55,190 bases of DNA from Chryseobacterium sp. 39-10. Lineage in GTDB: Bacteria; Bacteroidota; Bacteroidia; Flavobacteriales; Weeksellaceae. Positions 10,803 to 12,941 of the stretch are shown here, piece by piece. Numbering within the stretch: position 1 is the first letter of the stretch; every line of letters starts with the position of its first letter. The DNA is taken from assembly GCA_001898255.1 (NCBI GenBank), contig MKTK01000035.1, positions 58,101 to 113,290 on the forward strand, given 5' to 3'. Made by a program: the position numbers and the translations under genes. The notes beneath the pieces were generated by a model. The model saw only the letters and a program-made list of their open reading frames with translations, made no database searches and was not told the DNA's origin.

Positions 10803-12374
10803 TTACCTTGCAATATTCACCGCTCTTGTTTCGCGAATGACGGTAACACGCACTTGTCCTGGATAGGTTAGCTCATTCTGAATCTTTTCGGAAATATCGT
10901 AAGAAAGTTGTGCAGATTGCTCATCATTCACTCTTCCGCTTTCCACCATTACGCGAAGTTCGCGGCCTGCCTGAATGGCATAAGCTGAAGAAACTCCATC
11001 AAAACTTAGCGCCGCAGCTTCCAAATCTTTCAATCTTTGAATGTACGATTCCAAGACTTGTCTTCTTGCGCCTGGTCTGGCTCCGGAAATCGCATCGGCC
11101 ACCTGAATAATTGGTGATAGCAACGAGGTCATTTCTATTTCGTCATGGTGAGCACCAATGGCATTCACCACTTCCGCATTCTCACCAAATTTTTCTGCCC
11201 ATTGCATACCGAGTAGCGCGTGTGGAAGCTCTGATTCCTGCTCTGGCACTTTCCCGATATCATGAAGTAAACCTGCTCTCTTCGCTAATTTAACATTTAA
11301 TCCTAATTCCGCTGCCATGGTTGCCGCGATATTTGCCACTTCTCTGGAGTGCTGCAGCAAGTTTTGCCCGTAGGAAGAACGGTATTTCATTCTACCCACT
11401 ATTTTTACCAGTTCCGGGTGAAGCCCGTGAATGCCCAAATCGATAATCGTTCTTTTTCCAACTTCTATAATTTCTTCTTCGATTTGCTTTTTGGTTTTAT
11501 CGACTACTTCTTCAATTCTTGCAGGGTGAATTCTACCATCAGTCACCAAACGGTGCAGCGAAAGCCGTGCAATTTCTCGTCTTACAGGATCGAAACAGGA
11601 AAGCAGAATCGCTTCTGGCGTATCGTCCACAATAATCTCTACACCTGTTGCAGCTTCCAAAGCACGAATGTTTCGGCCTTCGCGACCGATGATTCTTCCT
11701 TTTACCTCATCCGACTCAATGTTGAATACCGAAACCGAATTTTCGATGGCCTGTTCCGTACCGATTCTCTGAATGGTTTGAATAACAATCTTCCTGGCTT
11801 CTTGTTTAGCATTCAGATTGGCTTCTTCCATAATGGACTGAACGTGTGCTTGTGCTTTGGTTTTTGCCTCAGCTTTCATCGCTTCTATCAGCTCATTTTT
11901 GGCTTCTTCTGCAGAATAGCCCGAGATTTTCTGTAGCGTTTCCACTTTCTGTGCGGTAACGGCATCCAGCTCGCTTTGTTTTCGTTCCAGTATTTCGTGT
12001 TTTTTACCGTAATCAGCGATCTGACGGTCCAAATCTTTCTCTAATTTACCGGTTTTGCTCAGTTCATCATTGAGTTTATTTTCTTTGTCTTTAATTCTTT
12101 TCTCCGCCTCCTGCATTTTCTTTTCTCTTTGCTGGATATCGGCGTCGTGTTGCGATTTAAGTTCCAGAAATTTTTCTTTTGCCTGAAGGTGTTTTTCTTT
12201 CTTCACGGCTTCTGCCTGAACGGTGGCTTTTTCTATAAGATTTTCAGCATTTTTCTTTGCATCATCGATGATGAATTTACCTTTTGCATTGAGCGAACTT
12301 TTGGAAAAAACGTATCCCAAAACCGCACCTGCTACTAGACAAATAATGCCGATAATAATAGCGGTTGTTGTCAT
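10803..12374 (-). CDS. rny: Ribonuclease Y
   Basis: RNase Y is a membrane-anchored endoribonuclease that starts mRNA decay. The 523-residue protein has an N-terminal membrane helix ([20 protein letters not shown], residues 4-23), then a long charged coiled coil to about 190. A KH RNA-binding domain ([22 protein letters not shown], about 223) and an HD phosphohydrolase domain with [10 protein letters not shown] near 370 follow, ending in [18 protein letters not shown]. Length and domain order are canonical. It follows zapA and the 6S RNA candidate on the same strand. Confidence 0.96.
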
Positions 12375-12460: not shown

Positions 12461-12628
12461 AAAAAAACCTACAATAATTCAGTGATATAGAGTAAACTCC
12501 TAATCTCCACGATTTGAACTGATTTCTTTTCTTTGTAATCTGCGCTGGGCAGCACGCCATTAAAAAGACATTCGTTCGGTAATTGTTTAGCGTTGAGTTT
12601 ACCTTTAATGTGTTAGAATTATTGTAGG
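12461..12628 (-). ncRNA. ssrS: Candidate 6S RNA (flavobacterial type)
   Basis: The zapA-rny spacer contains a long rod-like fold on the minus strand. Ends 12616-12628 and 12468-12480 are perfect 13-base complements (CCTACAATAATTC with its reverse complement). An inner stem pairs 12594-12601 with 12492-12499 (GTAAACTC). A large central region with a further GC-rich hairpin around 12541-12560 lies between. The closing stem is followed directly by seven T on the minus strand (12461-12467), acting as terminator. Size of about 160 bases, shape and the zapA neighbour match known 6S RNA, which binds RNA polymerase. No covariance search was run. Confidence 0.72.
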
Positions 12629-12653
12629 CAGTCGGTTTCCGGAAAAGAAAAAT

Positions 12654-12941
12654 CTACTTTTCCAGTGCTTCCAATATTTGGTTAATCTGCATTAACCTTT
12701 CATTGGCAGCAATCATATTTTTTTCGTTGGTGATTTGCGAAACTTCTGCATTGGTACCCAATTTCAGGGCACACATTGCTAAAGCATCCTGCTTATCTCT
12801 TACGTCAAAATTTTGTTCAAAATCTTTAATCATTCCCTCAATTTGCTTTCCCACTTTCCGCAGGGTTTCTTCTTCTGCAGCGGGCACATTCAGCGGATAA
12901 TTTCTACCGGCAATGGTGATGGTAATTCTTCTTACTTCCAT
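12654..12941 (-). CDS. zapA: Cell division protein ZapA
   Basis: ZapA binds FtsZ filaments and promotes Z-ring bundling. The protein from 12941 begins MEVRRITITIAGRNYPLNVPAAEEETLRKVGKQI, the conserved beta-strand and first helix, then a long C-terminal helix (about residues 45-95) for tetramerisation. The 95-residue length is usual. The start is set by a TAATG overlap with the stop of the upstream coiled-coil gene; a longer frame to 12974 would run through that gene. The 6S RNA candidate and rny follow. Confidence 0.88.
   Translation of the reverse strand: MEVRRITITIAGRNYPLNVPAAEEETLRKVGKQIEGMIKDFEQNFDVRDKQDALAMCALKLGTNAEVSQITNEKNMIAANERLMQINQILEALEK

Follow-up and report, generated by a model that had tools for sequence, protein, structure and literature searches.

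A candidate 6S RNA between zapA and rny in Chryseobacterium, and boxA-like sites ahead of its relatives

What is encoded in the 279-base spacer between zapA and rny, two minus-strand genes of the window, the 55,190-nucleotide stretch of Chryseobacterium sp. 39-10 DNA analysed here? The original prediction placed a candidate 6S RNA in this spacer and warned that standard annotation could miss it. We consider it very probable that the spacer encodes a 6S RNA, given the fold, the covariation, the homology to Rfam families, its occurrence at one genomic site and its constant position behind zapA.

Fold and covariation of the spacer RNA

The spacer extends from the zapA stop, which ends at 12654, to the rny start at 12374, and the gene preceding zapA gives a weak match to ZapB below the cut-off (PF06005, E 1e-3). 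The folding energy of the 180-nt strand 12640-12461 is −46.0 kcal/mol versus −29.8 (sd 3.9) for shuffled sequences, a z of −4.2 that none of 200 shuffles equalled, which bears out the long rod at its predicted coordinates. The predicted elements were recovered on the minus strand: the 13 perfect end pairs, formed by CCTACAATAATTC (12628-12616) with GAATTATTGTAGG (12480-12468) and extended by a G-U pair (12629/12467); the inner 8-bp stem GTAAACTC/GAGTTTAC (12602-12595 with 12499-12492), which has 9 pairs with its flanking G-U; the central bulge region with a GC-rich hairpin, paired as 12552-12549 with 12543-12540; and the seven-T tail directly after the closing stem (12467-12461). From its sequence, the T run together with the closing stem is likely an intrinsic terminator.

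The structure was followed in two alignments. The best 80 of 522 confirmed relatives of the window's rny belong mostly to Chryseobacterium, Kaistella and Epilithonimonas, with Elizabethkingia, Riemerella and Bergeyella also present, and all 80 have zapA upstream and carry ACTCAAC and GGAGTTT, 96-99 bases apart, ahead of rny. The window and these 80 loci (81 sequences, minus eight repeats) gave alignment A1, with 73 distinct sequences, from which the covariance model R1 was built; its E-values are rough. Alignment A2, with 71 rows minus nine antisense R1 matches and one repeated place, holds 61 sequences of the class. Locus L146 did not pass the E-value cut for A2 and is not in the boxA counts given below. 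The features of the locus are as follows.

12654..12941, minus strand: zapA, upstream neighbour (PF05164, E 7.4e-16)
12461..12630, minus strand: 6S-like RNA, from the extent of model R1, the 6S-Flavo and Bacteroidales-1 matches and covariation
12616..12629, minus strand: closing stem, 5' arm; 14 pairs, of which 7 changed on both sides; 99.7% of cells paired
12467..12480, minus strand: closing stem, 3' arm; covariation in A1
12595..12603, minus strand: inner stem, 5' arm; 9 pairs, 8 of which never vary in A1
12491..12499, minus strand: inner stem, 3' arm; pairing in A1 and across families
12578..12594, minus strand: central bubble, 5' strand; AACTCAAC conserved in nearly all 61 class sequences
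12500..12515, minus strand: central bubble, 3' strand; from the sequence and the 61-sequence comparison
12574..12577, minus strand: next helix after the bubble, 5' arm; 4 pairs, of which 2 changed on both sides; 98.6% of cells paired
12516..12519, minus strand: next helix after the bubble, 3' arm; covariation in A1
12558..12568, minus strand: upper stem, 5' arm; 9 pairs, 96.2% paired, 5 changed on both sides
12525..12535, minus strand: upper stem, 3' arm; covariation in A1
12540..12552, minus strand: terminal GC-rich hairpin; 4 pairs, 100% paired, 3 changed on both sides
12461..12467, minus strand: seven T after the closing stem, from the sequence
12589..12603, plus strand: predicted product RNA sequence, about AGCGUUGAGUUUACC, complement of the 5' bubble strand
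10803..12374, minus strand: rny (RNase Y), downstream neighbour (PF12072, E 6.1e-35)

The 40-pair structure has 98.9% of its cells paired in A1, compared with 92.2% in column shuffles and 32-46% in slid versions. Changes on both sides of a pair were found in 202 cells (57.6 in shuffles) and at 17/40 pairs (10.7 in shuffles), and none of the five covariation measures was reached by any of 500 shuffles. Conserved pairing in the zapA-rny spacers of relatives, whose absence would by the prediction's own terms have refuted it, is present with compensatory changes in these 73 sequences. Together with the covariance-model matches described below, this disposes of two of the three refuting conditions set by the prediction. 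The inner stem is nearly invariant in A1 and so is uninformative on covariation there; across families, in the 61 class sequences, some of its pairs are changed on both sides. These 61 sequences have 94.1% of cells paired and both-side changes at 36/40 pairs, in an alignment that is model-fitted and leans towards the structure. The rod with its closing stem, central bubble and upper stem, kept by compensatory changes, agrees with the architecture expected of the 6S class. Across families, the 3' bubble strand is mostly near CnTGT, preceding GGAGTTT.

On the 5' arm (window 12609-12618, minus strand), TTCTAACACA is invariant in the 73 rows of A1. It spans from the closing stem into the internal loop, the opposite side of which varies, and it is not constant in the basal genera.

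Relation to known 6S families and distribution

A search of the spacer region (cmscan, 1401 bases) with the Rfam covariance models, the check named in the prediction, matched 6S-Flavo (RF01685) over model positions 1-108 of 108, with 46.7 bits and E 7.8e-6. Bacteroidales-1 (RF01693) matched the same place and strand over positions 1-179 of 179, with 36.8 bits and E 3.8e-4. The remaining five of the seven matches with E ≤ 10 have E 0.29 or worse, and there was no further 6S family among the seven. At the gathering scores (85 for RF01685, 60 for RF01693) no Rfam match was found in the whole window, as would be expected if standard annotation overlooks this RNA: the window copy lies 38 bits under the RF01685 cut-off, and at that score it is not a member of the family. 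Elsewhere in the genome the sole other 6S-Flavo match has E 1.17. By these model matches the window RNA is a homologue of 6S-Flavo, outside RF01685 as curated, in line with the divergent flavobacterial class that the prediction had invoked.

The window RNA shares ACUCAAC and GGAGUUU with 6S-Flavo (PMC2864571), as well as the zapA-rny location, which is common to the window and to 20/20 above-cut-off loci of f3, another family of its order (probably Flavobacteriaceae). The window's own family, f1, is taken to be Weeksellaceae, since Chryseobacterium and Kaistella are the closest named relatives of its rny, and the order is accordingly taken to be Flavobacteriales. The window RNA differs from 6S-Flavo in that its closing stem and T run fall outside the Rfam model, and in having RTTCTAACACA at the 5' arm without a boxA-like site upstream. 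Bacteroidales-1, which carries the Rfam remark "6S-Bacteroidales RNA suggested", matches the window at full length, and its two above-cut-off loci are matched by R1 (42.9 and 37.0 bits); in contrast to the window, both of these genes stand alone and are preceded by a perfect TAnnTTTG. The ssrS 6S RNA of beta- and gamma-proteobacteria is a rod with a central bubble. Its genes follow the order ZapB-ZapA-ssrS (PMC7641849), which is comparable to the sub-cut-off ZapB match preceding zapA in the window; the next gene there is ygfA or an EVE gene, whereas here it is rny.

Within the order, 134/246 genomes match RF01685 at E ≤ 0.01. Thirty of these are above the cut-off, all in f3, and 104/134 are below it. 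The own-family matches listed are below the cut-off without exception (52/52, 35-56 bits); own-family misses are possible among the 92/112 genomes without a match that the search results do not name. Ten own-family and related loci examined by cmscan gave 47.6-57.7 bits with RF01685, all under 85. R1, which scores the window sequence, from which it was partly built, at 199.2 bits, matches 196/197 genomes of the family and 187/187 of those of good quality, the lone miss being a genome that is 81% complete. There was one match in 193 genomes and two in three (G267, G269, G308), where the second is possibly the antisense strand. Weak antisense matches of R1, with 23-41 bits, were seen at nine loci (L010, L057, L008, L063, L041, L021, L077, L001, L149), because the rod is nearly palindromic; they must be removed in surveys.

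Across the phylum, R1 matches 44/392 genomes (9 own-family, 33 f3 and two from other families of the class) and, at the stringency used, gave no match in the other 348. RF01693 matches 9/296 genomes: six matches fall where RF01685 or R1 also matches, two are above the cut-off, and one stands alone (G564), at a locus (L144) that R1 misses. Since the R1 and Rfam matches coincide and R1 finds Bacteroidales-1 loci, the two Rfam entries 6S-Flavo and Bacteroidales-1 appear to be a single 6S family. The curated cut-off is too strict for this RNA, leaving a likely global transcription regulator unannotated across a common bacterial family. This gap could be closed by R1 or by a lower cut-off, and the two Rfam families could be joined.

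The gene order zapA-6S-rny was found in all 119 loci read in the order (80/80 own-family, 20/20 f3, all of the latter above the RF01685 cut-off, and 19/19 from other families). Together with the placement of the 6S gene after zapA in beta- and gamma-proteobacteria (PMC7641849), this upholds the prediction that 6S RNA is commonly found beside zapA; the parallel with ZapB-ZapA-ssrS may be ancient or may have arisen by convergence. Beyond the order, zapA was found in 18 of the 20 regions read upstream of rny. In five of these zapA-rny loci, from a family designated f16, a 6S candidate sits in a long spacer. Four of the spacers are matched by R1 (32.8, 24.9, 17.8 and 16.4 bits, the last two with E 0.1 and 0.2), and the fifth (L166) has similar motifs by eye. 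The other 13/18 showed neither motif nor R1 match. Five 6S loci (L136, L137, L143, L144 and L164, of which L144 was added by its RF01693 place) are stand-alone, with no zapA or rny found within ~1.5 kb.

These distributions bear on an alternative that we consider improbable, namely that the structure is no independent 6S RNA but a cis-acting 5' leader of rny, acting as a regulatory element or as an attenuator. Transcription coming from zapA would run through this leader, and the amount of rny made would depend on its closing stem and T run. Such a leader would explain why the structure terminates in a stem with a T run and why rny follows it immediately, in the same orientation, in 119/119 loci read in the order. 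However, two 6S families match the structure, the five stand-alone relatives in the class indicate an RNA independent of rny, and 13/18 zapA-rny loci outside the order are without it. A second role of the 6S structure in termination before rny may nevertheless accompany its role as a separate RNA.

Less probable still is another structured small RNA that acquired a 6S-like shape by convergence. Rods are common among bacterial RNAs and the scores are under the Rfam cut-offs, but both 6S models align over their full length, and the R1 places are the RF01685 places in f3 genomes and the RF01693 place in G489, with Bacteroidales-1 loci found as well. The T run after the closing stem would also be expected of a chance inverted repeat or a plain zapA terminator, to which we give next to no credence in view of the fold (z −4.2, 0/200 shuffles) and of covariation measures reached by 0/500 shuffles. 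A 6S RNA is thus the reading retained here.

Proposed function

The proposed mechanism follows from what the 6S class is known to do. An RNA of ~165-170 nt, transcribed from the minus strand, would imitate an open promoter and bind sigma-A RNA polymerase, with the inner stem (12603-12595/12499-12491) serving as the putative downstream duplex. The polymerase would copy a short product RNA from the 5' bubble strand, which together with the inner stem would form the template, and this copying would likely release the 6S RNA. In the window's strain, transcription would either read through from zapA or begin at a weak start located by the zapA stop codon, and would end at the closing stem plus T run. 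The expected outcome is that sigma-A transcription is damped as growth slows. In B. thetaiotaomicron 6S RNA was detected with two kinds of product RNA, and RNA polymerase binding and product-RNA templating are described for this Bacteroides relative (PMC7366714); 6S RNA was also detected in F. psychrophilum (PMC9723704).

The promoter box of these bacteria is TAnnTTTG (PMC9723704, PMC7366714). The 61 RNAs were scanned for it with the inner stem as anchor. The best offset in the bubble has a mean of 2.75/6 matches compared with 1.75 (sd 0.42) over all offsets, and three offsets at or beside the inner stem outscore it. The 6S class is expected to carry a copy of the sigma-A −7 element in its bubble; no such mimicry is claimed for the 3' bubble strand, which has no clear TAnnTTTG and whose offset lies over the mean of all offsets yet under those at the stem. 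In the literature collection searched, no paper mentions Chryseobacterium together with 6S RNA. A broad survey of 6S RNA, reportedly that of Wehner et al. 2014 (RNA Biol 11:1468), may already list this RNA.

Sequences upstream of the 6S gene

In f3 loci a block resembling GTTCTTTAAAATA starts 21-29 nt ahead of the 6S closing stem, just past zapA. GYTCTTTAANA is the gamma-proteobacterial boxA consensus (PMC5725501). In the rRNA leaders of six genomes from this order, GTTCATTGACATA and similar sequences were identified by eye; they lie 46-68 nt downstream of a TAnnTTTG and 87-156 nt ahead of 16S. GYTCTTT blocks of this kind, between zapA and 6S, were seen in families of the order other than the window's (L083-L102, L145-L163, L262-L292).

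As this motif had been spotted by eye in the initial loci, 31 further loci were fetched as a test set, and the gamma-proteobacterial GYTCTTTAANA was used as the consensus. Within 50 nt upstream, 20/31 test loci have it with at most one mismatch and 11/31 with two, compared with 11/1620 and 125/1620 control 50-mers, respectively. In the discovery sets, at most one mismatch was found in 18/25 f3 and 8/18 other-family loci, and at the same threshold the class sequences gave 0/6. The shorter core GYTCWT lies within 40 nt upstream in 25/25 f3, 16/18 other-family, 31/31 test and 2/2 f16 sequences; in the order outside the window's own family this amounts to 72/74 loci, versus 5.2% of control 40-mers. 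These loci share ancestry and are not independent events, and 14/31 of the test loci come from a single genus, g11. A perfect TAnnTTTG was absent from the 40 nt upstream in all 76 f3, other-family, test and f16 sequences. Over the same distance, 5/5 stand-alone 6S genes carry a perfect TAnnTTTG and 0/5 carry GYTCWT.

A matrix derived from the six rRNA leaders scored 31/43 upstream regions at or above the 95th percentile of controls and 23/43 at or above the 99th. At a shuffle P ≤ 0.05 it detected 23/25 f3, 7/18 other-family, 2/12 own-family and 1/6 class sequences, the weak other-family result being due in part to variable spacing inside the site. GTTCTT lies no more than a dozen bases past zapA in each of the five f16 spacers, whereas the 13 zapA-rny spacers without 6S have none in up to 120 bases (L177 has GTTCTTTT 525 bases further). 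The site therefore tracks the presence of 6S, not that of zapA or rny. A genome-wide boxA claim built on GTTCTTTRAAAWA was abandoned, since in 12 genomes the sequence was not clearly commoner than its reversed control.

The sites ahead of 6S resemble both GYTCTTTAANA and the rRNA leaders of the order, and in this respect the boxA of rRNA leaders and suhB (PMC5725501). They differ in preceding a non-coding RNA, a kind of target that the boxA survey, by its own statement, did not consider (PMC5725501), and in being absent before the window's 6S. On balance we lean towards the following reading of these sequences. In the families of the order other than the window's, as well as in one family beyond it, 6S would be a Nus-controlled operon RNA, with a boxA located between zapA and 6S that loads an rRNA-type antitermination complex on the polymerase; the stand-alone genes would use a sigma-A promoter; and the clade of the window would have dropped the boxA and kept the place. 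A NusB gene is encoded in the window's genome. If this reading holds, a global transcription brake is made by the same machinery as ribosomal RNA, and 6S is a conserved boxA target that is neither ribosomal nor coding. In a literature search, the papers that mention both boxA and 6S RNA are unrelated to such a link by title, and the titles and abstract openings of part of the matches on boxA with Nus factors, and on 6S RNA with antitermination, showed none either.

Before the window's own 6S, the best match to GYTCTTTAANA in the 50 nt upstream has 3 mismatches, and at most one mismatch occurs in 0/73 rows of A1. Neither GYTCWT nor a perfect TAnnTTTG, as expected of a sigma-A promoter, lies within 40 nt upstream in any of the 73 rows, the window included. 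RTTCTAACACA was considered as a boxA relocated inside the window RNA and rejected, on account of three central mismatches to GYTCTTTAANA. A possible promoter of the 6S gene itself, TAGATTTT, has 5/6 matches, a level that 39% of random 60-mers reach; it is found at the zapA stop in 45/73 A1 sequences and, in the window, within the loop of a 9-bp hairpin. The 50 nt upstream fold more stably than shuffles (P ≤ 0.05) in 25/73 A1 sequences.

In the window, the loop of the hairpin CTGGAAAAG-TAGATTTTT-CTTTTCCGG (12639-12665) contains the zapA stop codon, and comparable stems whose arms differ in sequence occur in relatives (GGAAATG/CATTTCC in L077). A GTTCAT block is visible by eye upstream in L232 and L233, two loci of genus g86, and boxA loss in the window's family is therefore incomplete. 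Upstream of 6S, L242 has GTTCTTTTCC at the position of the window's TTTTCTTTTCC, a possible trace of an eroded boxA turned hairpin arm. At the 3' end of the 6S gene (window 12463-12470, minus strand), TAGGTTTT has 5/6 matches to TAnnTTTG and could be a weak start for rny.
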